Positions 14,179 through 51,641 of a DNA stretch of 64,000 bases are shown here, piece by piece. Below the pieces are notes generated by a model. The model saw nothing but the letters and a program-made list of their open reading frames with translations, searched no databases and was not told the DNA's origin. This DNA is from Henckelia pumila. Taxonomy: Eukaryota > Streptophyta > Magnoliopsida > Lamiales > Gesneriaceae. The position numbers and the translations under genes are program-made. The stretch spans positions 67,913,442-67,977,441 of the forward strand of contig NC_133122.1 of assembly GCF_033568475.1 (NCBI RefSeq), read 5' to 3'. The stretch's first letter is position 1, and every line of letters begins with the position of its first letter.

Positions 14179-14188
14179 ACCTACCAAT
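14179..14188. repeat. Left target-site duplication of the 18.5-kb insertion
   Basis: ACCTACCAAT here matches ACCTACCAGT at 32642-32651, 9 of 10 bases. The joined copia reading frame (V-P-T-S-G-Q-L-A-D) needs the right-hand version, so the left copy has since mutated G to A. Confidence 0.8.
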
Positions 14189-14640
14189 AGGGATGTAAAC
14201 GAACCGAACTGTTCGCGAGCTATTTGGAGCTCCGCTCGCGAAAAAGCTCGTTCGGACTCGTTCGTTAAGCTTATCGAGCCGAGCCCGAGCTTAATTTCGA
14301 GCTCGGTAATGTTCACGAGCCGAGTTTGAGATTAATGATATTCGGCTCGTTAGCTCGCGAACATGTTTCTTAATAGGCTCGGGAGCTCGATCTCGGCTCG
14401 TTTAGGTTGCTCATTAGCTCGGGCTCGAACTCGACTCGTTTATTGGCTCGTTAGCTCAAGCTCGAACTCGGCTCGTTTAGTGGCTCGCCAGCTTGAGCTC
14501 AGGCTCGGCTAGTGGTTCGCTAGCTCGAGCTCGAGCTAGGCTCGTTTACTGGCTCGTTAGATTGAGCTCGGGTTCGAGATTGTGCTTGGTTCATTTTGTT
14601 GGCTCGTGCATATTATTAGTTTATATGTATTCTCAAACTC
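14189..14640. repeat. Left end of MULE-type element, GCTCG-rich
   Basis: The 11-bp terminal AGGGATGTAAA is followed by about 430 bp dominated by GGCTCG, GAGCTCG and CTCGTT in many small direct and inverted copies. It resembles the right end in composition and motif. Confidence 0.75.
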
Positions 14641-15657
14641 GGCTCTTTTAATCATTTATATACCCCTTGAGTAAATTTACAAATTATGCTATTTTAAAAA
14701 CTAGTGTATTAAAATTTAAAGTAAATCTTTCTTAAAATAAAAAGATCTTGATTTTTCTTAAATAATAAAATTTGATTTTAATTAAAATTTCAAATATTAA
14801 ACCTTTCTTTATATATGTCAACTAGTATTAACGAAAAATTTGTATCTGAAATTTTATGTAAATTATTGATATGATATAATTAATTTATTGGATTTTTAAA
14901 TATTATTTTAAAAAATTATTATATAAAAATATTTATATTATTTTAGATAACCATAAATATGGATAAAAATGTGAAATTAAAAAAATAAAATGTTATTATA
15001 TATATCATTTTGAAAATTTTCACATATATATGCTCATCAAAAATTTATTTGAAATTATAAAGTTGTGATAACATCTTATCAAAATTTCAATTTTAATACA
15101 AAAATTAGTGTATTATAATTATAACTATAAATAGGTAATTACTGACAACATCCAATCAAATATAGAAATGAAAATTTTTATATCATCATATATAGCATTT
15201 ATAGAAATGTTCATGATACGTGGATGCAAAAATTAACTGAAATAAAAAATTACTCATATAATTCGATCAAATTTCAAATTGAGTACCAAAACTCAGAATA
15301 TCATTATAGATATAATATATGGATATTTTCACGTATATATAAATACAAAAAAATAATGTGAAATTTAAAAATGATAACATTCAGTCAAATTTAAAATTTA
15401 GAATGAAAAATAGGTACATTATCATCTATATCATTGTGGATATTTTTGCACATAAAAGACTATTGAAATAAAAAATCTTGATAATCATATCAAATTTTCA
15501 ATTTTTATCGGAAAGCATTATATATATATATATATATATTTTTGATTATCATTATTTTTTTTCTTGTTAATAATGTTTTTGGAAAAAAATTATATATATA
15601 TACATATATATATATACATGTCTCAAATTTTTAATAATAAAAACTTAAACTTTAATT
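14640..15657. repeat. AT-rich degenerate tandem region
   Basis: No gene is present. A degenerate unit of roughly 75-125 bp recurs near 15064, 15139, 15251, 15373 and 15478. It carries GATAACAT or similar, then ATCAAATTT, AAATT and a TATATCATTATAGAT-like stretch. TA microsatellite runs lie at about 15516-15540 and 15590-15615. Confidence 0.5.
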
Positions 15658-16975
15658 TTGTTTTGAATTTGAGACTGTAAAAAGTAGCCAAAAAGTGTAC
15701 ACTGTAAAATGTATAATGTCTGATTGTAAATGGGGAATCTGGACCTCAAAGATTAAGGATGATTCACATGCATTATTCATTCTGACATATTGCAATACAC
15801 ACACTTGTGGTTTGACAGGTAGACGTAAGAAAATCCGCGGAACTAGTTCGGTTGTTGGTCGTGATATGTTGGTAGATAATTTCCAAGGTCATCCAGTGCC
15901 AATTGTACCGAAAGCGGTCATGGCGATAATGCGCAATAGTATGAATGATATATCATATTACTATGCTTGGAGAGGTAAAGAACTAGCAGACAATTTTTTG
16001 AAAGGTTATTACACGAAGAGTTTTACTCTATTGCCTTGTTATATGCACATGGTTGAGAAAATGAATCGAGGAAGCATAACAAACATATGTGTTGACAAGG
16101 AAAACCAATTCAAGTATATGTTTCTTGCCTTTGGTGCATGCGTCATGGGATATCAAAGTATGCGGAAAGTTGTATCAATTGATGGTACGTGGTTGAAGGG
16201 CAAGTATAATGGTGTTTTACTAATGGCATCGGTCACCAATATCCTTTGGCGTGGGGAATTGTCGATGTCGAGTTTACTTCTTCGTGGAGTTGGCTTTTTG
16301 ACGAAGTTGTTAGATAGTACCAGACGAGGATGAACTGATGATAATTTCTGACAGACATCAGGAAATTATTAATGCGATTTCTAGTGTCTATAGAAATGCG
16401 CATCATGGTTATTATACATGACATTTATCCCAAAACATGAAAACTAGGTGCAAAAAGAAGGGTGCAACCAAAATGTTTCTGCACATTGCAAAAATTTATA
16501 AGCATATCGAGTTTAATATTGCATACAATGATTTTAGGAAGAGATGTCATGAGGCCGCACATTTTTTGGACGAGAGAGATTCACTTGATCGATGGACTCA
16601 AGCATATTGTCCAAAGACCCGTTACAATATTATGATGACAAACGGGGTTGAATAGATCAATGCTAGACTACGTGAAGAGAGGAAGCTTCCAATCATTACA
16701 CTTTTCGATTCTTTGCAGAGACTGGTTTCATCTTGGTTTGCCCGATACCGCCACGCATCAATTGCACCTAACACTAATTTGACCCCTACCATCGAGGGGA
16801 TTCTTCGTAGATGGTTCACTGATGCCCAGTGAATGCAAGTTTTTGAATTGGGTCGTCTTGAGTTTGATGTTAAGAGCGGTCGACATTCGGCCATAGTGGA
16901 CCTGGAATAAAAAAGATGCACATGCCGAGTTTTTGATATTGATATAATCCCATTTGCTCATGCCATCTTTATAAA
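15658..16975 (+). pseudogene. MuDR-type MULE transposase (MURA), left copy, 5'-truncated
   Basis: Homology to the right-hand copy starts abruptly at GAATTTGAGAC (about 15658), losing the N-terminal 160 or so residues. The frame at 15695-16333 reads the HTCGLTGRRKK zinc-binding region, YYYAWRGKELADN and the first catalytic segment VVSIDGTWLKGKYNGVLLMA. It then shifts near 16300 and continues with TRCKKKGATKMFLHIAKIYK, WTQAYCPKTRYNIMMTNGVE and a stop at 16654. The SWIM-type motif reads CTCRVFDIDIIPFAHAI, with Phe where the right copy has the third Cys. At about 16970 it fuses directly to the 3' end of gene copy A. Confidence 0.88.
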
Positions 16976-19900
16976 CCATGGCCTCTCAGGGTGTGTGTTG
17001 TTCCCAACAAGGGATAGCAGACGAGCAGCGTTGATAAGTATAGGCCCTATGTCTTCATTCAGAGCTTTGCAGTTAGCATCGTGCCTTCGCTGCAAGTCAA
17101 ATAGTGCACTTATTGACCCCTACCACGAGTTTTAACAAAAACCAGCGTCCATCTGTGTGGACATGGATGATAATTCTTTGTGCCTTTTCCCAGGAAATGC
17201 AGGGCCATTCTGCATCAATCCCTTCAACCACCCCTAGCAGATTTGTGTTGAGAACTCGGTTTTCATCTTCAGCCACTACTTACATCGATCGATATAATTG
17301 TCTATCCATTAGCGACATGACGGGTGACATCATTTCAGGATGTCGCAGCTACATCTCAAGCAATCCCCGGAGAGCTTCACCCATGTGCTGAATTCGATAG
17401 AAGAATAGGTTTTCAAAGTTTAAAAATAGGTGCTCTACAAATATACACAAATTGTAAATGCTTACACAGATCGTGACAGGCGACTTCGCGATTGCCATGG
17501 GCTTGTAGAACGACTTCTCATAATCTTCATAAAACCCTTTATCGTGCTCGGCGTACGGACGAGCATCGATGCCCTAACTCGAGCCAGCGAGTTGTTGACC
17601 TTGAAAGTCACGTTCTCCGCAAATGGTCTCACATCGTCATCTATAATTGCCCCAAACTGACGGTTCCCTGCATAATATGATAAATTATAAAAAGATTAAT
17701 GCAAACAGGAATAGATAAGATGCGGTGTACTAACCTCTCGATGTGGTTGCCTCGGCACCTGACATAACCGCATCAGGAGTCATCTGAATATCCAAAAACA
17801 TAAAGTTTAGCGTTTATTATACTATACATAAATATATAAGCCAAAAACTGCATTTAGTCACCTTCGAAGGATTTATTTGGTATAGTTGGCAGGCTAGACT
17901 CAAATACCGGTTTTGGGACTGGTTCAAGTGTTGAATCAGGTACTGAGACTGATGGTGCTGACTCCTCAACTTTGTTACTACTGGGAAACAATTCCCTGAC
18001 CATATTATCATCCACACCTAACAACATACATCACAACATACATCAAACAAATTAAAATTAGAATGACAATTCTAATACATTATTTTCTTACGTAAACATA
18101 AATAAAAATAACTCACCAAAGTCTGCCTCAAGTACGGATTATTTCGTCTTCTTCCCTATGCTATAGACCATGCTATTATCTCTCTGATACTGCACTGGTG
18201 TCTGAGACCTGATCTCAGCCAAACCTGCTCTAATATTTTCAACCAAACTCGATCTCAATTCATCAAAACCCAATTTCATATCCCTAATGCACGCGTTCTC
18301 AATAAATTCTGTTCTCATCTCAAGACGCAATGATTTAACAGTATCCTCCAATGCAGTCAAACGCCGCCCAAAACGATGATCCAGGGGTGATGGGCGGCGG
18401 GAATGATTGAGTCCTAAGTGAACTTGAGGACCCGTACCAATGGGAGAAGGGGTGCTGGAGCTGGATTTAGTAGCATCAGCAGAAGAGGTGCTGGAACCAT
18501 TCGGAGATGAAGGTGTGTGCTGGACTAGGGGATACTCCACAGGACGTTGGACTGGGAAAGACTCCACAGGATGCTGGACTGGGGGGACTCCAGAGGGTGC
18601 TGACTACATATAACAGTTTGACCCTGACTCCACGGCTTGAGTACCCAAGTGATGACTGCATCGCGTGCAGAATCAACAAAAACACCGGTCGTATAATACG
18701 GTGAAACGAGCTCCTCAGGAGTAGGAATCAAACATCCAACAGAATCCTATATTTATTTAAATATTGTATCAGATAAATTAAAAATTTATGTCCACAGTTA
18801 TTATATCAAATAAATTCATATTACTTACCACTGTAGCACAGACACCAAAGGTTGCACTAACATCAACAACAGACGGGACATGGTTTGTGGGCCATGTGTT
18901 AGTCACCCACTGAAACATCCTGGCCACTGGGCAACATCAAACTGTCCACCCCATTCCTTGTCATTGCAAAATTTTGTGTCACACTCGGATAATATTCATA
19001 AGCGAGGATCTGTAACATACTTTCAAACAATGTTATTATTAGAAATAAATATAACAAATTCATTTTAACTTTCAAAAAATGATATACCTGCAGAGGCAGC
19101 ACAAAACCATTGGGAAGGAAAATGCCATCAATTTCTTTACAACCCTCTGATTTGGTGACGTAAGTATATCTCCCTCAACGTCATTCTTCAAAGCTCTGAC
19201 TGCATCACGATAGACTACTCTATCCCAGGATAACTGTTAAACCTATCCAAATCATCTACAAGCCTTAGACATCTAGGGTCGATCTTTTTCCTAGTCCCCT
19301 CACCAAACACAATACAAGTAAAGACCAGTCATCTTCAACTACTCCACATTTATCCCCCTCAGTCTAATTATGTCTTGGACAGTAATCTTTGCCTCAAATA
19401 TGAGACTCACCAACAAAGTGTCTGGAGACAAAGACACCTCCTTCTGGTAGATCTGTCGGCTCTATAGAGCAGTTGAGACCGGTTATTAAACAATACTCTA
19501 ACATAGAAAATCTAACCGGCCTCTTGCGCACGACCATCCACAACTCATCACTATTGTTATAAAATATCTGACTACTCATTAAATACCCGATAATTTGACT
19601 ATAAACATTAAAATCTCGGTGATACCTAACGAGATTACCAAAAGAAGACTGCTCAAAAATCGTTTCTCTCTCCTCGTTGTTCAGGTAGTAATGAATCTTC
19701 TCTGCATTCTCTTTATATCTCGACTCAAGTGTCAATTTGCAGTAGAAAATTGCATCCCTGCCTAGTTTTTTTTTGGCAAATAGACCTAAAATATAAATAA
19801 ATGCGTTAGAAAAATCACATAGGCAACCAGTCTTACTTAACATTGGGTCGACCCAATGTTGGGTCCACAAGCATTGGGTCGACCCAGGCTTGGGTCGACC

Positions 19901-20044
19901 CAAGTTGTCGACGCGTCGACCATAAATGTCAACTGGTCGACCATGCTTCTCGACCCATAACTCACTAGGTCGATCATCGTCTTCCCTAATACGTACCCTA
20001 ATACAAAAATTTGAAAGAAACATTACCAGATTATTGTTAGCCAT
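16976..20044 (-). pseudogene. DUF1985-type MULE gene, copy A
   Basis: The start codon is at 20044-20042 (MANNNL), with donor CTG|GTAATG. The intron holds GGTCGACCC repeats and ends before GTCTATTTG. The next exon encodes LTLESRYKENAEKIHYYLNN, FGNLVRYHRDFNVYSQI, ELWMVVRKRPVRFSMLEYC and LITGLNCSIEPTDLPEGGVF, the core of DUF1985. Further down are ILAYEYYPSVTQNFAM, FPTPEELVSPYYTTGVF-like and ITWVLKPWSQGQTVICSQHP segments, a Ser/Pro-rich linker with VQHPVES-type repeats, and a helical stretch (DMKLGFDELRSSL). The 3' part is riddled with stops. DUF1985 genes with C-terminal Ulp1 protease domains are carried by Kaonashi-type MULEs. I could not see a complete Ulp1 triad here. Confidence 0.8.
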
Positions 20045-20437
20045 TTGTCCAATGGAGTTTGAGTGGTTGCGTCGATTGGAAGGGATTTGAGAGACGATTT
20101 GGGTCGATCCAAGAATTTGCGTCGAGAATCACCGAGAATGGAGAGAAGATTACAAGGAGGGTCGCCGGAAGTAAGGGGTTCCGTAAGGGAGGGTCACCAG
20201 AAGGGAGGGTCGCCAGGAAGAGAAGGGGGTCGACGGTGGATTTAAGTCGACGAGAATGAAAGATTTAGATGGGAATTGGATTTCGGTTTTAGTCGACGGG
20301 TATGGGGAGTGGATTGAGAATTGGATTTAGGTTTGAGTAAGTGTTTTCGAAAAATCTAATGGTGTACTTGCACTTAAACACAAGAACATATAGGTAAATT
20401 GACTCGTGGGTCCTTTTTTGGGAAATTTAGGGAAAAA
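20045..20437 (-). promoter_or_regulatory. Upstream region of copy A (arm of central inverted repeat)
   Basis: Read on the minus strand this is the mirror image of 20475-20815 upstream of copy B. Shared blocks include AAATCCAATTCTCAATCCA, TTCGAAAACACTTACTCAA and TTAAGTGCAAGTACACCAT. Small plus-strand frames (20059-20259, 20063-20245) are shadows. Confidence 0.75.
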
Positions 20438-20815
20438 GGGAGTGGATTGTAAGTTATTTAAAAAAAAAGATCCAAGAGTCAATTTGCCTATATGTCCTTG
20501 TGTTTAAGTGCAAGTACACCATTAAATTTTTCGAAAACACTTACTCAATACCTAAATCCAATTCTCAATCCATTCCCGTTGACTCAAACCTAAATCCAAT
20601 TCCCATCTAAATCTTCCATTCCCGTCGACTCAAATCCACCGTCGACCCCATTCTCTTCCCGGCGACCCTCCCTTAAGGCGCCCCTCACTTCCGACGACCC
20701 TCCCTTGTAGTCGTCTCTCTCTTCCTGGCGATTCTCGATGCAAATCCTTGGATCGACCCAAATCGTCTCTCAAATACCTTCCAATCAACGCAACCACTCA
20801 AACTCCATAGTACAA

Positions 20816-22345
20816 ATGACTAATAATAATCTGGTAATGTTTTTTTCGAATTTTGTGTTAGGGTTCGTATTAAGGAAAATGGGAAGACGACGATCGACCC
20901 AGTGAGTTATGGGTCGAGAAGCATGGTCGACCAGTTGATCCAAGCCTGGGTCGACCCAATGCTTGTGGACCCAACATTGGGTCGACCCAAAGTAAGACTG
21001 GTTGCCTCTGTGATTTTTCTTAACGTAATTATTTGTATTTTTAACAGGTCTATTTGTCAAGAAAACTAGGCATAGACGCAATTTTCCGCTGCAAATTGAC
21101 ACTTGAGTCGAGATATAAAGAGACTGCCGAGAAGATTCATCACTACCTGAACAACGAGGAGAGAGCAACATTTTTTGTCAGGTCTCCTTTTGGTAATCTC
21201 GTTAGGTATCACCGAGATTTTATTGTTTATAGTCAAATTATCTGGTATTTAATGAGTAGTCAGATAGTCGATAACGGTAGTGATGAGTTGTGGATGGTCG
21301 TGCGCAAGAAGCCGGTTAGATTTTTTATGTTAGAGTATTGTTTAATAACCAATCTCAACTGTGCTATAGAGCTGACAGATCTACCAGAAGGAGGTGTCTT
21401 TGTCTCTAGACACTTTGTTGGTAAGTCTCAGATTTTTCTGAGTGATTTGGAGTCAAAGATTACCGTGCAAGTACAGAATGAGACTGAGGGGATAGATGTG
21501 GAGAAGTTGAAGATGACTAGTATTTACTTCTATTGTGTTGTGTTCGTTGAGAGGACTAGGAAAAAGAGCGTGAACATCGACCCTAGATGTCTAAGGCTTA
21601 TAGATGATTTGGATAGATTTAACAATTATTCCTGGGGTAGAGTAGTCTATCATGATGCAGTCTTAGCTTTGAAGGACATTTTAGGGAGATATATTTACCT
21701 CATTGAGGCACAGGGTTGTAAAGAAATTGATGGCAGCTTCCTTCTCAGTGGTTTTGTGCTGGCTTTGCAGGTATATCATTTTTTGAACTTTAAAGTGAAT
21801 TTGTTATCTTTATTTCTAATAATAAAATTGTTTGAAATTTATGTTACAGATCCTCGCTTATGAATATTATCCGAGTGTGACACAAAAGTTTGCAATAAAA
21901 AGGGATGTGGTGGACAGTTTGATGTTGCCCAGGATGTTTCAGTGGGTGACTAACACATGGCCCTCAAACCGTGCCTCATCTGCTATTGATGTTAGTGCAG
22001 CCTTTGGTGCCTGTGCTACAGTGGTAAGTAATATGGATTTATTTGATATAATAACTGTTGACATAAATTTTTAATTTATCTGATACGATATTAAATAAAT
22101 ATAAGATTGTGTTGGATGTTTGACTCCTACCCTGAGAGCTCGTTTCACCGTATTATACGATCGGTGTTTTTGTTGATTATCACCCGATGCAGTCATCACT
22201 TGGGTACTCGAGCCGTGGAATCAGGGTCAAACTGTTATATGTATCCAGCACCCTTTGGAGTCCCCCCAGTCCAGCGTCCTTTAGAGTCTCCCCCAGTCCA
22301 GCACACAGCTTCATCTCCGGATGGTTCCAGCACCACTTCTGCTGA
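20816..22345 (+). pseudogene. DUF1985-type MULE gene, copy B (best-preserved core, 3'-truncated)
   Basis: The start is ATG at 20816 (MTNNNL), donor CTG|GTAATG and acceptor TTTTTAACAG before GTCTATTTG at about 21049. The exon then stays open for about 240 codons. It carries KLGIDAIFRCKLTLESRYKE, FGNLVRYHRDFIVYSQIIW, ELWMVVRKKPVRFFMLEYC, LITNLNCAIELTDLPEGGVF and RCLRLIDDLDRFNNYSWGRV, up to FVLALQ at about 21770. A GTATAT intron follows, then ILAYEYYPSVTQKFAIKRD and a further exon ending GACATV|GTAAGT-like at about 22022. The linker exon is cut at about 22345, where it meets copy C. This is the best copy for reconstructing exon structure. No Ulp1 part remains. Confidence 0.8.
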
Positions 22346-22843
22346 TGCCACTAGATCCAGACGCTGGACTGGGGGAGCCTCCAGAGGGTGCTGGATACAT
22401 ATAACAGTTTGACCCTGATTCCACGGCTCGACTACTCATTAAATACCAGATAATTTGACTATAAACATTAAAATCTCGGTGATACTTAACAAGATTACCA
22501 AAAGGAGACTGCTCAAAAAATGCTGCTCTCTTCTCGTTGTCTCGACTCAAGTGTCAATTTGCAGCGAAAAATTGCGTCTATGCCTAGTTTTTTTTGACAA
22601 ATAGACCTGTTAAAAATATAAATAATTGTGTTAAGAAAAATCACAGAGGCAACCAGTCTTACTTAACATTGGGTCGACCCAATGTTGGGTCCACAATCAT
22701 TGGGTCGACCCAGGCTTGGATCAACTGGTGACCATGCTTCTCGACCCATAACTCACTGGGTCGATCGTCGTCTTCCCATTTTCCTTAATACGAACCCTAA
22801 CACAAAAATTCGAAAAAAACATTACCAGATTATTGTTAGTCAT
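22346..22843 (-). pseudogene. DUF1985-type MULE gene, copy C (short remnant)
   Basis: The start codon position is 22843-22841 on the minus strand. The intron with GGTCGACCC repeats is retained. The coding remnant at 22433-22560 reads FGNLVKYHRDFNVYSQIIWY, then jumps directly to the linker segment GSNCYMYPAP at about 22432, so most of the gene has been deleted. It faces copy B tail to tail. Confidence 0.75.
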
Positions 22844-23218
22844 TTGTACTATGGAGTTTGAGTGGTTGCGTTGATTGGAAGGTATTTGAGAGACGATTTG
22901 GGTCGATCCAAGGATTTGCGTCGAGAATCGCCAGGAAGAGAGAGACGACTACAAGGGAGGGTCGTCGGAAGTGAGGGGTGCCTTAAGGGAGGGTCTCCGG
23001 GAAGAGAATGGGGTCGACGGTGGATTTGAGTCGACGGGAATGGAAGATTTAGATGGGAATTGGATTTAGGTTTGAGTCAACGGGAATGGATTGAGAATTG
23101 GATTTAGGTTGAGTAAGTGTTTTCGAAAAATTTAATGGTGTACTTGCACTTAAACACAAGGACATATAGGCAAATTGACTCTTGGATCCTTTTTTTAAAT
23201 AACTTACAATCCACTCCC

Positions 23219-23585
23219 TTTTCCCAAAAAAAGGATTTACGAGTCAATTTACCTATATGTTCTTGTGTTTAAGTGCAAGTACACCATTAGATTTTTCGAA
23301 AACACTTACTCAAACCTAAATCCAATTCTCAATCCACTCCCCATTCCCGTCGACTCAAACCTAAATCCAATTCCCATCTAAATCTTCCATTCCCGTCGAC
23401 TTAAATCTACCGTTGACCCCCTTCTCTTCCCGGAGACCCTCCCTTACGGAACCCCTCACTTCTGGCGACCCTCCTTGTAATCTTCTCTCCATTCCCGGTG
23501 ATTCTCGACGCAAATCCTTGGATCGACCCAAATCGTCTCTCAAATCCCTTCCAATCGACGCAACCACTCAAACTCCATCGGACAA
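23219..23585 (+). promoter_or_regulatory. Upstream region of copy D
   Basis: This is the inverse of the region upstream of copy C. The two diverge from about 23218. It carries the same AGTCAATTTACCTATATG, GCAAGTACACCATTAGATTT and CGAAAACACTTACTCAAACC blocks as the other copies. Confidence 0.7.
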
Positions 23586-26500
23586 ATGGCTAACAATAAT
23601 CTGGTAATGTTTCTTTCGAATTTTTGTGTTAGGGTACGTATTAGGGAAGACGATGATCGACCTAGTGAGTTATGGGTCGAGAAGCATGGTCGACCAGTCG
23701 ACATTTATGGTCGACGCGTCGACAACTTGGGTCGATCCAAGCCTGGGTCGACCCAATGCTTGTGGACCCAACATTGGGTCGACCCAATGTTAAGTAAGAC
23801 TGGTTGCCTATGTGATTTTTCTAACGCATTTATTTATATTTTTAACAGGTCTATTTGCTAAGAAAACTAGGCAGGGATGCAATTTTCTGCTGCAAATTGA
23901 CACTTGAGTCGAGATATAAAGAGACTGCAGAGAAGATTCATTACTACCTGAACAACGCGGAGAGAGAAATGATTTTTGAGCAGTCTCCTTTTGGTAATCT
24001 CGTTAGGTATCACCGAGATTTTAATGTTTATAGTCAAATTATCTGGTATTTAATGAGTAGTCAGATAGTTGATAACAATAGTGATGAGTTGTGGATGGTC
24101 GTGCGCAAGAGGCCGGTTAGATTTTTTATGTTATAGTATTGCTTAATAACCGGTCTCAACTGCGCTATAGAGCCGACAGATCTACTAGAAGGAGGTGTCT
24201 TTGTCTCCAGACACTTTGTTGGTAAGTCTCAGATTTTTCTAAGTGATTTGGAGGCAAAGATAGTAGTCCAAGACATAATGAGACTGAGAGGGATAAATGT
24301 GGAGTAGTTGAAGATGACTAGTCTTTACTTGTGCTGTTTTCGGTGAGGGGACTAGGAAAAAGATCGACCCTAGATGTCTAAAGCTTGTAGATGATTTGGA
24401 TAGGTTTAACCGTTATCCCTGGGGTAGAATAGTCTATCGTGATGCAGTCAGAGCTTTGAAGAATGACGTTTTAGGGAGATATACTTATGTCACCAAATCA
24501 CAGGTTTTAAAGAAGTTGATGGCATCTTCGTTCCCAGTGGTTTTGTGTTGCCTCTGCAGGTATATTATTTTTTGATAGTTAAAGTGAATTTGTTATATTT
24601 ATTTCTAATAATAACATTGTTTGAAATTTATGTTACAGATCCTCGCTTATGAATATTATCCGAGTGTGACACAAAATTTTGCAATGACAAGGGATGTGGT
24701 GGACAGTTTGATGTTGCCCAGGGGCCAGGATGTTTCAGTGGGTGACTAACACGTGGCCCACAAACCATGTCTCGTCTGTTGTTGATGTTAGTGCAACCTT
24801 TGGTGCCTGTGCTACAATGGTATAATAACTGTGGACATAAATTTTTAATTTATCTGATACAATATTTAAATAAATATAGGATTCTGTTGGATGTTTGTTT
24901 CCTACTCCTGAGGAGCTCGTTTCACCGTATTATACGATCGGTGTTTTTGTTGATTCTGCACCCGATGCATTCATCACTTGGGTACTCGAGCCGTGGAGTC
25001 AGGGTCAAACTGTTATATGTAGCCAGCACCCTCTGGAGTCCCCCCCAGTCCAGCATCCTGTGGAGTCTTTCCCAGTCCAACGTCCTGTGGAGTCTCCCCT
25101 AGTCCAGCACACACCTTCATCTTCGAATGGTTCCAGCACCTCTTCTGCTGATGCTACTAGATCCAGCTCCAGCACCTATTCTCCCATTGGTACGGGTCCT
25201 CAAGTCCACTTTGGACTCAATCATTCCCGCCGCCCATCACCCCTGGATCATCGTTTTGGGCGGATACTGTTAAATCATTGCGTCTTGAGATGAGAGCACA
25301 ATTTATTGCGACCAGAGCATGTATTAGGGATATGAAATTGGGTTTTGATGAGTTGAGATCGAGTTTGGATGAACAGATTAGAGCAGGTTTGGCTGAGATC
25401 AGGTCTCAGACAGTATCAGAGAGATTATAGCATTGTCTATAACAGAGGGAGGAAGAGGAAAGCATCCGTACTTGAGGCAGACGTTGGTGAGTTATTTTTA
25501 TTTATGTTTACGTAAGAAAATGATGTATTAGAATTGTCATTCTCATTTTAATTTGTTTGATGTATGCTGTTAGGTGTGGATGATAATATGGTCAGAGAAT
25601 TATTTCCCAGTAATAACCAAGTTGAGGAGTCAGCACCATCTATCTCAGTACCTGATTCAATACCTGAACTAGTTCCAGAACCGATATTTGAGCCTAGCTT
25701 GCCAACTATACCAAAGGAATCCTCCGAAGGTGAACTAATGCATTTTTTGGCTTATATATTTAAGTATAATATAATATAATAAATGATAAACTTTATGTTT
25801 TCAGATATTCAGGTAACTCCTGATGCGGTTATGTCAGGTGCCGAGGCGACCACGTCGAGAGGTTAGTACACCGTATCTTATCTATTCCTGTTTGTATTAA
25901 TCTTTTTATAATCTATCATATTAATCAGGGAACCGTCAGTTTGGGGCAATTATAGATGACAGTGTGAGGCCATTTGCGGAAAGCGCGACTTTCAAGGTCA
26001 ACAACTCGCTGGCTCAAGTTGGGGCATCGATGCTCGTCTGTACGCCGAGCAAGATAAAAGGGTTTTATGATGATTATGACAAGTCGTTCTGCGGGCCCAT
26101 GGCGATCGCGAAGTCGCCTGTCATGATCTGTGTAAGCATTTACAATTCATGTATATTAGTAGAGAACCTATTTTTAAACTTTGAAAACTTATTCTTCTCG
26201 CGAATTCAGCACATTGGTGCAGCTCTTCGGGGATTGCTTGAGATGCAGCTGTGACATTTTGAAGTGATGTCAACAGTCATGTCGCTGATGGATAGACAAT
26301 TCTATCGCTCGATTTCAGTAGTGGCTGAAGATGAAAACCGAGTTCTCAACACCAATCTGGTGGGGGTGGTTGAAGGGATTGATCCAGAATGGCCTTGCGT
26401 CTCCTGAGGAAAGACAAAGAATTCTCATCCCTGTCCACTCAGATGGGGCGCTGGTTTTTGCTAAAACTCGTGGCAGGAGTCAATAAGTGCACTATATTTG

Positions 26501-26874
26501 ACTTGCAGCGAAGACACGACCCTAACTACAAAGCTCTGAATGAGGACATAGAGCCTATACTTATCAACGCTGCTCGTCTTCTATCCTATGTTGGGAACAA
26601 CCCACACCCTGAGAAGCCATGGTTTATAATGATGTATGATGACTTCAGAGCCCAGATTAAACAGTATGTTCTCGTATCTCTAATGTGTAATAATTTCATT
26701 ATTCTTTTTACTTGTACATTGAGGATGCAGGAGCATTTGTCTTAGCTGCTACTGGATATGTCTTATCTAGGGACAGTGATCACCTAGTATTAAATTTGGA
26801 TGATAGACTTGTAACTGAGTTTAGATATTTTTTAGCCTGTAATACGTTTGATAATCAATGGACATTGTATTGAT
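23586..26874 (+). pseudogene. DUF1985-type MULE gene, copy D (longest copy)
   Basis: It starts with ATG at 23586 (MANNNL) and donor at CTG|GTAATG. The acceptor is TTTTTAACAG at 23848. The core exon reads FGNLVRYHRDFNVYSQIIWY and ELWMVVRKRPVRFFML, then TAG at 24134-24136 where copies A and B have Glu. Later exons give ILAYEYYPSVTQNFAMTRD, PTPEELVSPYYTIGVFVDSA, a VES-rich linker (PVQHPVESFPVQRPVES), SLRLEMRAQF and DMKLGFDELRSSLDEQIRAG, VDDNMVRELFPSN, and TPDAVMSGAEATTSRG. Then come SVRPFAESATFKVNNSLAQV, EDIEPILINAARLLSYVGNN, and a final FVLAATGYVLSRDSDHL to a TGA at 26872. The last piece has the shape of a Ulp1 C-terminus but reads DAGAF rather than DCGVF. Confidence 0.78.
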
Positions 26875-27520
26875 CTTTAAATTTTTTTCGAAGTGATGAA
26901 TTTAAGGTTTTATGGTCGAATGTTTGATGTTGGTCAGTTTTTGGGTCGACCCTGTTGATTTTGGGTCGACGTTGATTTTGGGTCTACCTTGGTGAAGTTT
27001 GGGTTGACCCTGTTGCTTTTGGGTCGACCATTTTGCTATTTGGTTGACCCCTGTTGTTTTGGGTCGACTTTGTTCAATCGTACATATTTTAACATATGAA
27101 TCCGCTAATTTCACAAGTATGTTCTATAATGATATATGTTTTAACATATGAATCCGCTAATTTCACAAGTATGTTCTATAATCGTACATGTTTTAACAAA
27201 TGAATTCGCTAATTTCACAAGTTTGTTTCGTACATGTTTTAACATATGAATCCGCTAATTTCACAAGTATGTTCTATAATCGTACATGTTTTAACATATG
27301 AATCAACTAATTTTCCTTGTTGTTCCGGTCGACCCAAAGCCTGGAACTTTGGGTCCACCCTTGTTGCTCCAGATCGACCCAAATGCTGAATCTGCTTCAA
27401 CCTTTTGCTGAATTCAACAATTGAAGGAATTCTCTTCTGTTTTCTTTTTTAAACAAGAGGACCATTGGAAAATTAATATTACGTGGCCATTCACTTTCTT
27501 CGGGAACGGGATACACAGCC
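26875..27520. repeat. Spacer between copy D and right MURA; two kinds of short repeat
   Basis: 26925-27070 is packed with TTGGGTCGAC(C/G) units. 27090-27310 holds four copies of a unit of about 55-60 bp: CATGTTTTAACATATGAATC then CGCTAATTTCACAAGTATG. Another GGTCGACCC cluster lies at 27325-27385. No gene seen. Confidence 0.8.
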
Positions 27521-27521
27521 T

Positions 27522-29649
27522 ATGAGTAAGCCATGCACCATGTCATCGTAGAATAGTACTCTGAACATAATTCATATAAATCAATCTTGGCTAACCAACT
27601 GGCTGCAATGACATGAGCACATGAGATTCTATCAATATCAAAAACTCGTCATGTGCATCTTTTTTATTCCAGATCCATTATGGCAGAATGTTGACCGCTC
27701 TTAACATCAAACTCAAGACAGCAAAATTCAAAAACTTGCATTCCCTGGGCATCAGTGAACCTGCTACGAAGAATCCCCTCGATGGTAAGGGTCAGATTAG
27801 TGTTAGGTGCAATTGATGCGTGGCGATATCGGGCAAACCAAGATAAAGCCAGTCTCTGCAAAAAATCTAAAAGTGCAATGATTGGAAGCTCCCTCTCTTT
27901 ACATAATCTAACATTGATCGATTCAACCCCGTTTGTCGTCATAATATTGTAACGGGTCTTTGGACAATATGCCCGAGTCCATCGATCAAGTGAATCTCTC
28001 TCGTCCAAAAATTGTGCGGCCTCGGGATATCTCTTCCTGAAATCATTGTATGCAATATCAAACTCGATATGCTTATAAATTTTTGAAATGTGCAGAAACA
28101 TTTCGGTTACACTCTTCTTTTTGCACCTAGTTTCCATGTTTTGGGATAAATGTCACGTACAATGACCATGATGCGCATTTCAATAGACATTAGAAATCGC
28201 ATGAATGATTCCTTGATGTTTGTTTGAAATTATCACCAGTTTATCCTCGTCTGATACTACTTCTAACAACTTCATCAAAAACCAACTCTACGAAGAAGTA
28301 GACTCGACATCGACGATTCCCCACGCCAAAAGATATTGTTGACCGATGCCACGAGTAAAACACCATTATACTTTCCCTTCAACCACGTACCATCAATTGA
28401 TACAACTTTTCGCATACTTCGATAATCCCTGACGCATGCACCAAAGGCAAGAAACATATACTTGAATCGATTTTCCTCGTCAACACATATGTCTGTTATG
28501 TTTCCTAGATTCATCTTCTCAACCATGTGGAAATAACAAGGCAATAGAGTAAAACTCTTCGTGGGATCACCTTTCAAAATATTGTCTGCTAGTTCTTTCC
28601 CTCTCCAAGCCTTGTAATATGATATATCAGCATTCATAGTATTGCGCATCATCGCCATGACCGTTTTCGGTACAATTGGCACTGGATGACTTTGGAAATT
28701 ATCCACCAACATATCACGAACAACAGACGAACTGGTTCCGCGGATTCTCTTACATCTTCCTGTCAAACCACAAGTGTGTGTATTGCAATATGTCCGAATG
28801 GAGAATGCATGTAAATCATCCTTAATTTTTGAAGTCCAGATTCTCCACTTAAAATCAGACACTATATATTTTATAGCGTACACTTTTTGGCTACTTTTTA
28901 TCGTCTCAAATTCAAAACAAGCTTCCAAACCGATTCTTCTTAACTCTTTTTTCACCGCATCTCTGTTTGGAAATTCTTGACCAACAAACAAGTTTGAACC
29001 ATCTGTGAATGAAGATGTGTCATTATCAATATCCACATATGCAACCACATTTGTCTCATTACTTGCAACCACATTTGCTTCAACCTCAACGTCTCGGATG
29101 ACATTCACATCACGTGCTTCATCATATAACTCAGCCGTGTTACTACGATCCACATGGATGGCATCCACATTATGTGCTTTGTCAAAAAAACTCAAGGGTA
29201 TTATTACGATCCAAAGAAACAATATTCAAATCAAAATAATCATCATAAGATCTCTATTCGTTATAATTATTATTGTACTCATCAATAGCAACTCCGTGTA
29301 CATTATCAGGAACATCCAAAGAAGCATCAACATGTTCAATTTCAACTTGAAGCACTGACATATTTTTGGGACAACCAAAATAAAAATATGCTTTCAAATC
29401 ATGGTCATTCTCTATATAAATAGGTTGAATGTTGCATGAAAACTCTAAAAGGTAACTCAACCTCAGGTTGGCAGTCTCGTCTACTTTCCCAGCTCTATAT
29501 AGTTCACTTTTTAAATTTTCGAGAAGGCAAATATCATCATCTATTGGAATAGCAACAAACTTTGAATTGGACCCTGGATTCCATTTATATACGTTAGCTT
29601 CACTCACTTCCCATCTACCATCGAAATGAACAACGATAACTGTAGGCAT
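27522..29649 (-). pseudogene. MuDR-type MULE transposase (MURA), right copy, nearly full length but broken
   Basis: Read on the minus strand from ATG at 29649. The N-terminal 131 residues (MPTVIVVHFDGRWEV) end in a stop, and the frame resumes with FVGQEFPNRDAVKKELRRIG and the CNTHTCGLTGRCKRIRGTS zinc-binding region. MNADISYYKAWRGKELADN and VVSIDGTWLKGKYNGVLLVA (first catalytic Asp) follow. A frame break lies near 28275. Then come VSDEDKLVIISNKHQGIIHA (second Asp region), TRCKKKSVTEMFLHISKIYK, WTRAYCPKTRYNIMTTNGVE (Glu region) and the SWIM finger, in which the second Cys is a TGA. The gene is convergent with copy D, as mudrA and mudrB are in MuDR. Confidence 0.9.
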
Positions 29650-29925
29650 AACCTACAAAATTCACCAAAAAATAAGAGAATATGATAATTAGAATCAGCA
29701 AAAATTAACAAAAAAATCATAAATAAGCATCGCCACACTTGGTCGACCAAAATTTTGGGTCGGCCAAGAAGAATTTTCTGGGTCGACACACTTGGTCGAC
29801 GGTTGCTTTTTCTCCATCGACCAAGAGTCAGAGTCCTTGTTCTTTAAATACTTTCTCTCGCACTCCTATTTTTTTAATTAACCTTTTTTTTAAACAACTT
29901 ACAATCCACTCCCTTTTCTCTAACA
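29650..29925 (-). promoter_or_regulatory. MURA upstream region and probable MULE terminus
   Basis: It contains GGTCGACC-type repeats (29736-29822) and ends in ACTTACAATCCACTCCCTTTT at about 29895-29915, the same terminal sequence as the right end of the B-C foldback unit. I read it as the outer end of the gene-carrying MULE. Confidence 0.5.
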
Positions 29926-30170
29926 GTATGTTTGGATGACCAAAAAATGGAATTTGGAATTGGATTTGGATTTGGATTTTAAATTCATTGAATTCAAATT
30001 TCATTTTGGTGTTTGGAAAAAAGTTAAAATACATATTGGAATTTACTAGCATAAATTTTAGGAAAGTGATATTTTGTAAAAAAAATGTTAGGAAAACTTA
30101 AATTTATAATTAAAGTTTATAAATTTGTTATTAGAAATAATTTTATTGTTTTTATAAACCAAAATCCCAT
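29926..30170. other. AT-rich, MITE-like fragment
   Basis: It begins GTATGTTTGGATGACC, with repeated GGAATTTGG/TTGGATTTGGA motifs, a style common in Tourist-like MITE ends. No partner end identified. Confidence 0.3.
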
Positions 30171-31275
30171 GAAATCCGATCGAGCGGACACAAGGAGAAA
30201 AGAAGAGTAGCGGACCAGAGGACGTCTCGCTCGATCTGCTACTTTCCACGATCGAGCGAGAAGGGAAATTCGGGAAATTTTTATCTGATAAGGAAACTTT
30301 CTTGGGAAGGACTCTAGCCTTAATTATAATACATTATCTCGATTTTTAGATCTTAGTAATCAGTTTTGGACGGGAGAAGAGAGGAGAACTCTTTGGCGGC
30401 TAGGTTTATCTTCCTTGTTCTTAGATTTAATCTCTTTATTAAATTTTTCTAAGTTTTAATTCTTGGTAGAGAGAGACAAACCCTTTGAAGTTTATTTATA
30501 TTGTGAGATTCAGATTTTCATTGTTTGATTTTTGTTTGAGTATCAAGATTTGTTTGGAATTGATTGTCATGCTTGTGTGTTTGATTATTGGATTGATTAC
30601 CTGATGATTTTTCATACAATCTAAAGCTAAATTAGATATCAAATCCGTAATTGTTTGATCCTTCTAATTTGCGAAGCAACTGCGATTAATAATTTCCGCT
30701 CGTAAATTTGTTAATTCGTAGGAACATCTCTTGACTAGATTAAATACAAACGTTTGTGTTTGTGTTGTTTAGTTTCATCAATTTCACTAGTTTGAATGCT
30801 ACATTGAATTTAAATCTCAATCGCTTGTATTTTGGTTAATTCATTGAATTTAAATCTCAATCGCTTGAGATAGAAATTAAATTTTTAATAATGAATATTC
30901 AATGAGAGTTAATTATTTTTAGGGAATCGATGATAGAGTGAATAACTTCAAGGATGTAGTCGACCGATACCAAGACTTGTTTTAATTAATTGTTTCGTTA
31001 TTATTTTAATATTGCATGCTAGTGATAAAATTTATTTTATTTTCTTTTAATTTTAGTTAGTTAATTCCAAAATCCAAAAATCCCTTTTATTTTCAGTACT
31101 TTTTAAGAACACAAATAAATTTCACTTTTCTCGTGAGAACTATCCCTACTCTCGCTACTACATGTTTATTTAGTTAATCTGAGTTGGTTAATTTGGACGC
31201 GATACGACTAAGCGCTACCACGGGACGTCCTTTGATCACGTTGTTCTTGCCAGTAACATTTTCCGGCTTTTAGAG
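30170..31275 (+). repeat. Probable Ty3-gypsy LTR fragment
   Basis: This is non-coding. It has the hallmark layout of long plant gypsy LTRs and leaders: a run resembling GCGAAGCAACTGCGATTAAT, AATCTCAATCGCTTG twice (about 30812 and 30855), then CTCGTGAGAACTATCCCTAC, CGCTACTACATG and TTGGACGCGATACGAC (31130-31210). I cannot define TG/CA ends or a target duplication. Confidence 0.45.
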
Positions 31276-31490
31276 TTCATTTTTGGCCTTTGATCTTCGG
31301 CCTTTGATCTTCTGCTTGAATCTCCTTGGCCAAACGATCTCCTCCATCGGGGCATTCATTTTATTTCTGGTACAGTTGAGATTGAATTTTTACCGTCGAT
31401 TTGTGTTGAGTTTTAGTACTGAATTGATATTAATTTTTTTATCTAAAAATTATAAAAGATTATAGAATAATTTTGAATGCTAGGATGTAG

Positions 31491-31655
31491 ATGAGTGCTC
31501 TGGCCGGCTTTATATTTCTAGTTTCTAGGTTAGCAGCTACACCACCTCGTGAAGTGGATGGATCCTCTAATTATACATTTGCAGAAGCTTGCGCAAATGA
31601 ATCTAATACGATTGAACTAACTAGGAAACTCTATGGAATTTTAGGCATTGTTTGA
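31491..31655 (+). CDS. 54-residue open frame of unknown origin
   Basis: ATG to TGA reads a hydrophobic start (MSALAGFIFLVSRLAATPP) followed by polar, codon-like sequence (YTFAEACANESNTIELTRKL). It might be a gene fragment captured by the surrounding MULE, but I recognise no family. Confidence 0.2.
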   Translation: MSALAGFIFLVSRLAATPPREVDGSSNYTFAEACANESNTIELTRKLYGILGIV

Positions 31656-32214
31656 TCTCGATCATCTCCTGCAAATTTAAACCTCTCTTGTAATGGAAAC
31701 TGCATGTGAAAAGCAACTTATAATTTTATGCAGCGGTAATTATGTTGATTTCCCAAGCTTTAGGGGTGCTGTGGATATGTTACTTGAATTCAATTCCCAA
31801 CTCTTATGAATCCGAACGTGTCCCAGATCGACTATGTTGGGGGCTTAAATTTATTGAATAAATGCAGTCGAGTTCGAATGGGAAAAAAATATCTCTTTGT
31901 GTTGTCTTTTCTAGATTTGCTAGCTATTAAATGTGAATAATCGATCAACATGAAATTTTTTAAGTTATGCTATGAATCAATGTTGTAGATACAATAATTA
32001 GTGGAATATGTGTATACTGACAGGTCCATTTCCATCTCTACAAGTTGTATACAAACAAGGGATGAGGAGATTTTATTTTGTTGCATGTGATTATGCACGG
32101 TTCACCTAAAACACACACTATATAACATGTGTTGAGATTTGATTGAGTGTTTGATATAATATTTTGGGGATGTTCTTTTTTCTATTAGGTTTGCCATTTT
32201 TATTTTATCTACGA

Positions 32215-32560
32215 AAAATGTAATTTTAGCTTATAATTAATTTATAGAGATGTATTTTATTGTATTTACGCTTAAAGAGCCAAAATACGAGCTAATGAGC
32301 TCGTTTAACGAGCCTACTAACGAGCTCTCTAACGAGCCTGAAAACGAGCTTGCTAAACGATTAACTCGATCCAGGCCGTTTAATACGATATATATAATTT
32401 TAGCTTATAATTAATTTATAGACATGTATTTTATTGTATTTACGCTTAACGAGCCAAAATACGAGCTAAGGAGCTCGCTTAACGAGCCTGCTAACGAGCC
32501 TAAAAACGAGCTTGTTAAACGATTAACTCAAGTCAGGCTCGTTTATACGGTAAACGAGAC
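32215..32560. repeat. Tandem duplication of about 177 bp near the right MULE end
   Basis: TTTAGCTTATAATTAATTTA, then TATTTTATTGTATTTACGCT and GAGCCAAAATACGAGCTAA, occurs at 32225-32385 and again at 32398-32560. Each unit carries several AACGAGC(C/T) motifs. Confidence 0.85.
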
Positions 32561-32641
32561 GAGCCAGAGCCCTTATATATCTCAAACGAGCCGAGCCCGA
32601 GCCTGATACTGTTCGGCTCGGCTCGTCTCATTTACATCCCT

Positions 32642-32651
32642 ACCTACCAGT
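32642..32651. repeat. Right target-site duplication of the 18.5-kb insertion
   Basis: ACCTACCAGT pairs with 14179-14188. Removing the insertion and one copy restores a continuous copia frame. Confidence 0.8.
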
Positions 32652-35478: not shown

Positions 35479-36040
35479 GATGTTTCATTCTGCATCTATT
35501 CAATGGTTTGGTGATATTTTCATAAGCACAACTTTTGTTGTGACCAGCTGTAATTGATGTTCTGTTTTTGCTTCACGCGTATAGACATATAACATTTTAT
35601 ACTCTGATACAGAACTATTAATGTGCTCGACTGCCCTTCTATTCCAACCAGCTAACACTTCTCTCATGCACACGCATAAAATCAAATCTAAAACACTCTA
35701 GTAAATCTTTACAAACATGTGGATCCATCAGAAAAAACACTTTCTCTCCACTGAGAACAAGCAGAAACAATGATCTACTTGAGGCAATTCAATTCCGCAT
35801 CCTTACAGAACACAAATATCACACACAGAAACAGAAATCATGCATCATAAGTGACCAACCAAACAATGTGTATATACACACACATAGAAAAAGTATGGCA
35901 GGATTCAAGTGAACTGCTAGACAAGCTAAATAAGACATCAACCTGCCAAAAGTTTTGTTTGTTATTGCAATATCATGAATAAGTAAAACATTATCACAAG
36001 ACCAATAAAAACCTGGACAATTACTTTTAACTAATGTTAT

Positions 36041-36592
36041 ATTAAAATCAGTGTTCTAAAAGGCGCCGCCTAGGCGCTAGGCGGTTGCCCACCGCCTCGT
36101 TTTTTTGCTAGGCTATGCCTCTAGGTTTGCCCGCCTAATCTCCGTCGCCTAGGCTGACAAAAATCCGCCTAGACGGGCAGAAATCCGCCTAAGCGGTTAC
36201 TATTTTTTATTAAAAAAATTAAAAATAAAAAACTAAAAGAGAGACGCGAAGCGAGAAACAAACACAGAAAGAAAAAAAAAGCGCAGAAAAGAATGTCAAG
36301 CAAAAAATTAATTCTCATATTACATATGAAGACTTGATATCTATTAATATTTATGTTGTTGTTATTATTATTATTATTATTAAAATTTTATAAAATTTTC
36401 GTACAAAAACTAAAAAACATAAGACATAAAAATTATATTTTATAGTAAAACTAATGAATATTCAAAGTAATTAATTATTTAAGTTTAAAAAAAAACCGCT
36501 TAGGCGATCGCCTAGGTGGCTAGGCGCTAGGCGCTAGGCGGTGGGTCGCCACCCGCCTATTGCCTAGCGCTTTTTAGAACATTGATTAAAAC
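36041..36592. mobile_element. Non-autonomous hAT element (536-bp MITE) with 8-bp target duplication
   Basis: Ends are CAGTGTTCTAAAAGGCGC (36049) and GCGCTTTTTAGAACATTG (to 36584), an imperfect inverted pair. Flanks are ATTAAAAT and ATTAAAAC, 7 of 8 matching. The interior is rich in CCTAGGCG/GCCTAGGCG near both ends and AT-rich in the middle. Eight-base duplications and CA..TG ends fit hAT. Confidence 0.85.
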
Positions 36593-39500
36593 AGACATAG
36601 GAAAAACACAAATACTTGAAAATAAATTTGGGAGACAGTGCAGTGCACGCAAATAAAACACTAATTTGGTTCAACTGCAAATCAACATAAAAAATACTGA
36701 TACCACTGTACAAAAGGAGGAAAAAACAACTTAGAAAGCAAAATAGGAAACATAAAAATGTAATTGAACTCGTGCTCGTGAACAAAGTATACATCTGTAA
36801 CGCCTCGATTTTATCTTAATTGACTTTATTTGAGATAATCGGAGATTTCAGAGTTCAAGAGCCGACTTGATTTTGATCAGGGTCCTTTTTGCAAATTTCG
36901 AATTTTTTTGGGACTAAAATGCAATTTTGGACTTAAATAGATATTTAAGCTTGCTTTGACTTCTTCTCCTCCATTCCCCCCTTCCTCCATCGCCTCTCCC
37001 TCCATTGAAGCCGCCCCATTTGGTTTTCAAGCTTTGGGAATTCGGTTTTCGCTCGATCCGTCCGTTGGAATTTATTTCTGAATGCAGATTAGCGATCACG
37101 GCTACGAGAGCTTCGTTCTACCGTAAGTATTTCTCCGATCAGATACGTTTCGTTTTTGGGATGTCGTTAGAATCGATTGAGTTGCTAGAATGTTGTTCTT
37201 GGCAGAGTTCTGATCGTTTATTATCTGTCGGTTTCGAAATAGAGCGTCGTTCGGATTTGTTATGATTTTTGAAGGGATTTTTGAAAGTTGAGTTTTTATG
37301 ATTTGTTGGAATTGGATTGTTATGGTTGAATATTGATTGATAAGAGTTGTTTGGATTGATATTATGCTGTCTGCGTTTTCGGTTTGATCATAATACAGCC
37401 GTTATGCCTACGGTTTGAGTTTTGGATTGTCAATCGGTTTGTAGTGTTTGAGCCAAGTCTTTGATTGAGTTATATTTTGATCTCGAGCCTTTATTACTTC
37501 TTTTGACAGATTCGTTTGAAGGCCGTTGAGTTGCGAGATTTCAAGAGTTGTATCGCTTTGAAGATTGTAGCCGGTATAGTATCGATTTTTTATTATCGAT
37601 TGAGGAAGTTTGATTTATCTTGATTGAGGAATTGTTGTTGTTTCCAGGTTGGAGCCTCGACGTTTGAAAGAGGTATAAGATGACTTAGACTGGAATGGAA
37701 CGTGTGACTCGAATCCGACTTGATTCGAGTGTTCCGGAAAAATCACATACTTGCATGTTATTTGATTATTTAAGTTATTTGAGTTACGTTTTGCATTGCA
37801 TTCATATTGAGCTAAGAATCCTTGATTTGAGCAGCGGGCAGGACGGCCCTTTTATGATAGACATTTTGGGGATTATATTGTAAGTGGTCTGGGTGTAGCC
37901 GTTTCACCTAGTGCTAGCATACTCCTTATAGTCGCACCAAAGTCTAGAGGATGGAGATACGTAGCACCACCTCGATCGGGAGAGTCGGTGAGTTGTTTAC
38001 GTGATCTCATCCTCGGGATCCCCAAAAGCAAAAGCAGCAACTCTTTTGATTATCCGACTTGATAATCCCAGATTTTAAAGACATGCATTGCATTGTATGC
38101 ATTTGAATTGAGTTTAGATATGAATTTGGAATTGATTGTCTTGTATATATATCATGTGTTGATATATTAATTGATATGCATATTTGTCTCTTTTACTGGG
38201 GATTGTATTCTTACCGGATTATCCGGCTGTTGTCTTTGTTTGTATGTGTACTTGGCAACAGGTGGGGCAGGACCGAGTCAGAGTAGACCTGGTTAACGTC
38301 AAGAGCAAGAGATAGTAGTGAGACTCGTTTAGAAGTCGAATCAGCATGTCAATCTAGTTTATGTTTTGCGAACATGTTTTGTCATTCGAACTTCTCGTTT
38401 TGTATTGTAAGCAAGAATCGATGTAGGTACTACCGAATCGAATGTTTTTCTTGTAACACCCGGTGTTTTTAATACGTAAATTCGTATGCATAATTAGGGA
38501 ATTTATTTATTTAAAATTTTAGATTATGGGTTAAATATTTATGTGAATTATTTGTGCATGATTTAAATGATTTTCAAGCATTTAACCCATAATTAGAGAT
38601 TTTCATGATTTATGGTAATTGTATTATTTTATCGCGTTGACGGGACCGTGGACGGACGAGATGACAACTTTCTACCCAAATTATTTTATGAGCCTTTTTG
38701 GAACCCGAAAATATTATTTTGAGTTTTTATTCCTCAAAATTATCAATATTTGATTTTTAAATAATTTTAGGAGTCCGTTTTATCCAAATTAAGTCATTTT
38801 AATGACTTTTTATTATCCTTAAAATTCCCTAAATCCATTATTTCGGTATTTATTTATTTTATTAGTTAGCTAGTATTTTATTAAGTTAGGAAATCTTTTT
38901 ATATTGGTATTTATCTCCTAATTAATTATTGAGATCATTATCTACCTAATCTACTCCCCAATCCATCGCCCAAAACCCCCCAAACACACGCTCACTCACT
39001 CATTCTCTCAACCTAGCCGCCTCCACTCTTCTCCCTCACCTCTCCATAGGCGCACGGCAGGAAGGAATCCATAGCCAATTTTGAAGCTTCAAAGTTAGTC
39101 GTCGTCGTCGTCCCGGATTCGTCACCGTCTATCCCTTCTATTATTTTTATCGGTGAAAGGCATGTTTTCTTCCTCTATTTCGCACTATATCAGTGATTAT
39201 TATGTGTGTGTTGTGTATGCATCGATTTGTTCATAGATTTTCAGAAAAATGAGACGGTTTTGTTCTTGATGCTCGTTCATGTGCTTTCTTCATTCAAGCT
39301 CACGTTTTTCTCCCTCCATGGTAGTATAGCTGCTGGTCAGGGGTCCCTAAGTCATGTGAGGGTGGTCTGGACTCGAGTGGCTCGAGTGGTTCAAGCCAAA
39401 CGAGCCCAGGTAGGTGCTGGTGCAGGATCGGGCTTGGGGCGCAGGTTTAGGGTTTGATGGAAGGGGGTTCGGTGCTCTGTGCGTGGGCTGCATGGGGTCG

Positions 39501-45200: not shown

Positions 45201-45225
45201 TGTGACGAACCCTCTAACTTCACTA

Positions 45226-45227
45226 CA

Positions 45228-45284
<57 letters not shown>

Positions 45285-51601: not shown

Positions 51602-51641
<40 letters not shown>

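Follow-up and report, generated by a model that had tools for sequence, protein, structure and literature searches.

A double Ds of maize is a transposon that has entered, in the opposite orientation, a near-identical copy of itself. None of these was detected in B73 (PMC3260210). Tomato Mutator-like elements (MULEs) with multiple terminal inverted repeats showed no recognizable internal target duplication and were judged not to result from nested insertion, according to the available part of PMC3310237. The Mu killer locus of maize has both ends from the same element side, and its partial gene copies end in an inverted duplication; short antisense transcripts, not long hairpins, are described for Mu killer silencing plants, which is termed a new model (PMC3440606). 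The anti-silencing VANC proteins encoded by Arabidopsis VANDAL elements contain a DUF1985 domain (PMC5735166, Fig. 5 legend), and an excerpt of that paper states that VANC21 binds to arrays of a short motif in noncoding VANDAL21 regions. Here we describe a palindromic block of MULE genes at positions 15658-29925 of a 64,000-nucleotide stretch of the Henckelia pumila genome (NC_133122.1, positions 67,913,442 to 67,977,441; hereafter the window), which contains copies of the transposase gene MURA and of a DUF1985 gene. As judged from its sequence, the block is very probably a double MULE that arose by self-insertion, was enlarged later by one inverted duplication and is now a relic.

Results

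Organization of the palindrome

The block is ordered MURA> <A B> <C D> <MURA, in which A, B, C and D are four DUF1985-side segments and the outer genes are referred to as MURA_L and MURA_R. This arrangement had been put forward in the original prediction and was borne out by alignments of the inverted arms and by Pfam domains. The outer arms (15658-16966 and 27608-28920) are 90.7% identical and the arms 16964-21261 and 22430-26634 are 90.6% identical, both far above chance, with some inner stretches reaching 97-99%. Pfam matched DBD_Tnp_Mut (PF03108) in MURA_L and MURA_R, and DUF1985 in copies A and B. Arm-to-arm differences amount to 3-9% and include many indels that are private to individual copies. 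The left arm is devoid of 976 bases which the right arm possesses at 26635-27610. Since several family copies have sequence at this position, the difference reflects a loss on the left, and a transposon insertion into the right arm is disfavoured.

The resident MULE (element 1, 15658-20419, minus strand) comprises MURA_L and copy A, and its DUF1985-side (DUF-side) end is cut in a T-tract at 20419. MURA_L (15658-16967, plus strand) is what remains of a transposase gene, truncated and interrupted by stops and frame changes. Besides the 976 bases near its 3′ end, it lacks its 5′ part, being cut at 15658; in tblastn comparisons with frames of the related loci L013 and L011 it begins at residue 234 and contains 1+4+1 stops in its main pieces. 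Copy A (18139-20419, minus strand; PF09331 E=3e-9, and alignment) is followed by B (20420-22360, plus strand), the start of the inserted element 2, with the intact DUF-side terminus GGGAAATTTAGGG. The DUF1985 exon of B at 21048-21806 is free of stops, its later exon is broken and the gene is cut at 22360. C (22361-23225, minus strand) is an inverted, internally deleted copy of B, in which ~950 internal bases are missing and the DUF-side terminus is nearly complete (10-base loss). D (23226-25263, plus strand) repeats A in inverted form, including the cut end, which here lies in an A-tract. The remainder of element 2 (25264-29883, minus strand) harbors the 3′ region, an intergenic array of 52-bp tandem repeats (27076-27313, 4.7 copies), MURA_R, which is broken like MURA_L, and the MURA-side terminus. 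Hence, the predicted order of the transposase and DUF1985 copies as inverted repeats holds, while C is only an 865-bp remnant and MURA_L is cut.

Probable insertion of a MULE into the end of a relative

In the first step, a family member would have landed, in head-to-head orientation, in the DUF1985-side end of a resident element closely related to it and thereby cut this end within its T-tract. The step is strongly supported by the junctions. The intact DUF-side end GGGAAATTTAGGGAAAAAGGGAGTGG at 20420 adjoins A, whose own end stops in the T-tract. The tip that is absent from A was found at 29884-29925 (minus strand; TTTTTTTTAAACAACTTACAATCCACTCCCTTTTCTCTAA, outermost bases missing), in A's orientation and immediately behind the MURA-side terminus CACTCCTATTTTTTTAATTAACC, with which element 2 ends at ~29883; 29884-29925 is a displaced piece of the end of element 1. 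An intact end facing a cut end, with the displaced tip behind the insert, is the arrangement expected when one element inserts into another's end. That 29884-29925 is a normal MURA-side end is disfavoured by the near relative L020, in which nearly the same MURA-side terminus is followed by unrelated sequence; the comparison comprised this one near relative and the more distant L011 and L025. The two MURA copies (2426/2667 identical) and the copies A and B (1680/1846) have diverged to the same extent (both 91.0%; Fisher P=1.0).

Proposed inverted duplication of the junction

C and D would have arisen in a second step, in which the A|B junction region was copied in reverse into element 2; template switching in the course of repair is a possible mechanism. 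This duplication appears to be later than the insertion. A and D are identical at 1929 of 2015 positions (95.7%; P=9e-11 versus the outer arms), B and C at 759 of 780 (97.3%). Among sites aligned in all four copies, 39 showed the pattern AD|BC, two AC|BD and none AB|CD. In a tree of 25 rows, set up without C and without a dimer at C4:133 Mb (see below), A and D are sisters (100/100) and B comes next (93/94). Moreover, the C|D junction corresponds to the A|B junction but for a 10-base difference and a few substitutions. A single palindromic element B-C located between A and D is disfavoured, its flanks being inverted and not direct repeats.

Further inverted dimers

Three further inverted dimers, one of them with a clean 9-bp target duplication, were detected in the same genome at C4:145 Mb, C1:108 Mb and C4:133 Mb, showing that such dimers recur. 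The dimer at C4:145 Mb (L009, L029 and L030; C4:145076000-145096000) is fresh and consists of head-to-head copies with arms that are ~98% identical. The 9-bp target duplication of its insert is AGTTTCCAC, the flanks of the resident are GTTAAAAAA, and the outer left side carries a displaced end piece. Compared with what a simple insertion would leave, the short spacer that separates the arms has the opposite orientation, which may be explained by recombination between the arms. At C1:108 Mb (L010), the arms are 85.9% identical. The dimer at C4:133 Mb (L031, C4:133053300-133056300) was noticed in the MURA match list, and 3 kb around its centre were fetched. Its copies are joined at their MURA ends, with arms that are 97.7% identical, one terminus intact and the other ~21 bp short. 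In all four dimers, that of the window included, an intact end meets a same-type end that has been shortened by a cut some 20-150 bp from its tip, and in the window, at C4:145 Mb and at C1:108 Mb a displaced resident end piece is situated beyond the insert.

Related copies were fetched from 20 places taken from a DUF1985 match list (40 of 126 candidates scored) of the 884.7-Mb genome. L009 and L010 were chosen because this list already showed inverted pairs, and the C1:108 Mb dimer is known from it. Only these two of the 20 loci revealed inverted arms of more than 1 kb; the other 18 gave no inverted arms of at least 300 bases, or matches of less than 700 bases, mostly in motif arrays. Among the 41 MURA matches listed (40 of 55 candidates scored), three close pairs occur, in the window, at C4:133 Mb and at C4:145 Mb, and all are inverted. 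Two close rows on the same strand (C3:199.44 Mb and two C4:133 pieces) resemble single genes split by inserts. For ~39 copies with two 200-bp ends each and 39 insertions in 884.7 Mb, random expectation is ~0.0007 own-end insertions, a value that assumes random placement, whereas real placement is non-random, and that uses the copy list as a lower bound. Self-targeting or local transposition is therefore a likely cause. The halves of the C1:108 Mb dimer are sisters in the tree (100/99); those of the C4:145 Mb dimer fall into one near-identical group with L011 and L012, in which sisterhood of the halves is not established. Both positions fit an insertion into a sister or neighbouring copy. A literature search pairing DUF1985 with MULE yielded no paper, and the titles and abstract openings of the literature surveyed contained no palindromic or head-to-head MULE dimer, though one may still have been described in print.

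The B-C core and its predicted hairpin

The second step would have given the innermost 2.8 kb of the block (20420-23225) the layout of Mu killer, i.e., a DUF-side end, B>, <C and a second DUF-side end. The ends of B and C share GGGAGTGGATTGTAAGTTATTT of the DUF side, and both outer ends of the core come from the same element side. Its truncated gene copies are arranged tail to tail, B being cut at 22360 and C inverted; the duplicated gene is DUF1985, and MURA lies outside the core. Folding of the RNA of 20480-23190 (2711 nt) gave a minimum free energy of -1780.6 kcal/mol with 732 pairs joining 20480-21261 and 22430-23177. The predicted stem contains 13 perfect runs of at least 21 nt, totalling 636 nt, the longest of which has 113 nt. 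B ends ~107 codons before the position of A's stop codon, so that a B transcript could run straight into C.

The original prediction had placed divergent promoters at about 20437 and 23218. These positions fall at the transposon-end junctions 20419/20420 and 23225/23226, and outward promoter activity close to them is a candidate feature of the locus. Transcription from either outward end would cross the truncated DUF1985 gene into the antisense copy, and the resulting RNA would form a ~0.75-kb stem, a possible substrate for Dicer enzymes. Only for the B-C core would transcription from its own end suffice to form a hairpin, with no need of long read-through. By contrast, hairpin arms of several kb covering both genes, as had been envisaged, would require a read-through of 9-13 kb, and the proposed parallel to Mu killer applies to the layout of the core and not to the whole palindrome.

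The MULE family and its motif arrays

The usual order in several related copies is DUF1985>, tandem repeats of the 52-bp type and <MURA. The ends of the family are unlike each other, with GGGGAAATTTAG on the DUF side and GGGGTGGTTAAAAAA on the MURA side. Target duplications of ~9 bp were found for L011 (ATGGGAAGG) and L025 (GGCAAAAGC) as well as for the C4:145 Mb dimer. L013 contains an open MURA frame of 639 amino acids (PF10551 E=4.6e-21, PF03108 E=2.3e-12) and a DUF1985 exon (Pfam match E=1.3e-19), which identifies a MULE family carrying a DUF1985 gene. L011-L017 form a young subfamily with near-identical copies in the tree. The B-C core belongs to another subfamily, and the four members of it sampled outside the locus (L018-L021) are incomplete or interrupted within the 10 kb fetched. 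In some relatives, e.g., L015, the 52-bp tandem repeats are expanded to long arrays.

Kaonashi-type MULEs are those with a C48 peptidase domain of the Ulp1 type. The family differs from them in that Pfam revealed no match to this domain in the open frames of L013 scanned. An Ulp1 peptidase was accordingly rejected as a component of the element, no match being significant and L013:6539-7141 giving only a BRCT match below its cut-off. The third open frame (L013:5481-5984) had no Pfam match up to E 10 and a non-significant hit to SENP5 in the PDB (E=0.95); perhaps it is a decayed Ulp1-like domain. DUF287 was not matched at E<=0.01 in the scanned L013 frames, and two of these gave no match even at E values of up to 10.

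The palindromic motif GGTYRACC occurs 18 times in the MULE block (0.53 expected under an order-1 Markov model) and is absent from the other 49.7 kb of the window. In L011, L013 and the C4:145 Mb dimer, it forms dense arrays that lie centrally as well as within either end of the elements. The commonest spacing is 17 bp (52 of the 175 spacings below 80 bp in five loci). Because these arrays resemble the target arrays of VANC, GGTYRACC is a candidate binding site of the DUF1985 protein.

Surroundings of the block

The whole MULE block is enclosed by a hAT-type element of 18.5 kb (14188-32642) with the ends TAGGGATGTAAA and the 8-bp flanks CCTACCAA and CCTACCAG. By our reading of the sequence, this element lies within a copia element, which it splits between the RNase H region and the copia end. 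Elsewhere in the window, a tandem array of ~10 copies of a 69-bp unit is located at 744-1570. A direct duplication of ~2.2 kb (76%) links 38452-42743 and 50046-51950, with a weaker inverted copy (65-72%), and no open frame of at least 170 amino acids exists within 36000-53000. Repeated pieces in the same direction (45700-47732 and 63298-63744, 90-95%), ~16-18 kb apart, are perhaps a deleted dispersed repeat.

Discussion

The arms of the palindrome are, on the present evidence, accounted for by self-nesting plus one inverted duplication. Some observations weigh against this explanation. The T-tracts TCCTTTTTT and CCTTTTTTTT flanking the insert are compatible with a 9-bp target duplication but do not prove it, and element 1 has lost its MURA-side end, hence it has no own flanks for comparison. 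At C1:108 Mb, the displaced end piece (L010 9665-9752, behind the second element) is diverged and the target duplication ambiguous. With respect to the second step, the B-D stretch 25166-25263 is covered by D only, which leaves the outer breakpoint known to ~100 bases. Furthermore, B and C are nominally more alike than A and D (P=0.06), and the A/D identity is uneven along the gene, suggesting that some gene conversion between the copies probably occurred as well.

An active suppressor locus, in which the hairpin of the core or of the whole palindrome yields small interfering RNAs (siRNAs) that act in trans to silence the MULE family, in the manner of Mu killer, is unlikely. The Mu killer layout of the core and its strong predicted hairpin would suit such a function, yet four of the 41 outside matches listed (40 of 76 candidates scored) extend over much of the first 450 (upstream) stem bases, at 72-84%; one more covers 79 of these bases and the rest share only the later part, mainly its final few hundred bases or less. 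The young subfamily, with ~230 stem bases in common at 84-86%, has been amplified to near-identical copies. Perfect 21-mers of the stem do exist in relatives (out of 2244 on both strands, 196 in L018, 154 in L020 and 28 each in the young-subfamily copies L009 and L011-L017), but such numbers, together with the low identity, make targeting possible and weak. Besides, both MURA copies are broken, and for Mu killer itself PMC3440606 describes short antisense transcripts and not long hairpins. The hypothetical suppressor is thus narrowed to the 2.8-kb core, and even there its function is doubtful. The locus is expected to be, for the most part, inert and silenced, a relic which at most affects itself and a few close relatives. 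One may speculate, with little probability, that a MULE family inserting repeatedly into its own ends seeds hairpin silencers against itself, and that the B-C core was one of them, directed at the DUF1985 (VANC-like) anti-silencing gene rather than at the transposase, and helped to silence its own subfamily, of which L018-L021 were sampled.

As to the origin of the palindrome, it seems quite improbable that one inverted duplication, comprising the entire left half (MURA_L-A-B), was responsible. Such an event would agree with arms that are collinear over most of their length, but the rise in identity from 91.0% (outer arms) to 95.7% (A and D; P=9e-11) speaks against it, and neither the outer end piece at 29884-29925 nor the unlike truncations at the two ends are explained by it. 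Similarly improbable is that two independently inserted elements became alike by gene conversion without any inverted duplication. Although identity peaks near the centre and varies along A/D, conversion cannot create C or the odd A|B junction that is repeated at C|D; it may have acted as an additional process. An assembly artefact (missed adapter or chimera) is very unlikely, since the two arms diverge by 3-9% and have private indels, the junctions and end pieces are consistent with transposition, and similar dimers occur at three other places.

Self-insertion with a later inverted duplication would illustrate a simple route to a layout of the Mu killer type, namely insertion into a matching end and subsequent inverted duplication. 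The four dimers make this route testable, because young ones (C4:145 Mb and C4:133 Mb) can be set against old ones (C1:108 Mb and the window). Should the core produce siRNAs, it would represent a natural hairpin directed at a putative anti-silencing gene; otherwise, the locus would show that a suppressor takes more than inverted copies of a transposon.

The locus shares with double Ds the inverted insertion of an element into a near-identical copy, though double Ds belongs to the hAT elements, whereas here a MULE would have been inserted near the matching end. Additional copies of MULE ends within an element are also known from the tomato MULEs with multiple terminal inverted repeats, as far as the available part of PMC3310237 describes them, but the C4:145 Mb dimer differs from these by its internal target duplication. 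With VANDAL elements, the family has in common a MULE structure without long similar ends, DUF1985 in the second gene and dense noncoding motif arrays (excerpts of PMC5735166 and PMC10398659). The motif is YAGTATTAY there and GGTYRACC here, DUF287 is not matched in the family frames scanned, and an anti-silencing role of the H. pumila gene is putative. Mu killer, in the sections of its description available, silences, carries a duplication of the transposase gene mudrA and has arms of ~1.3 kb, while the core described here, known from sequence alone, sits in a larger double MULE, duplicates DUF1985 and has arms of ~0.75 kb. What the maize locus and the B-C core share, within the same limits of that source, is the build of an internally deleted, partly duplicated MULE whose outer ends are same-sided and whose partial gene copies end in an inverted duplication.

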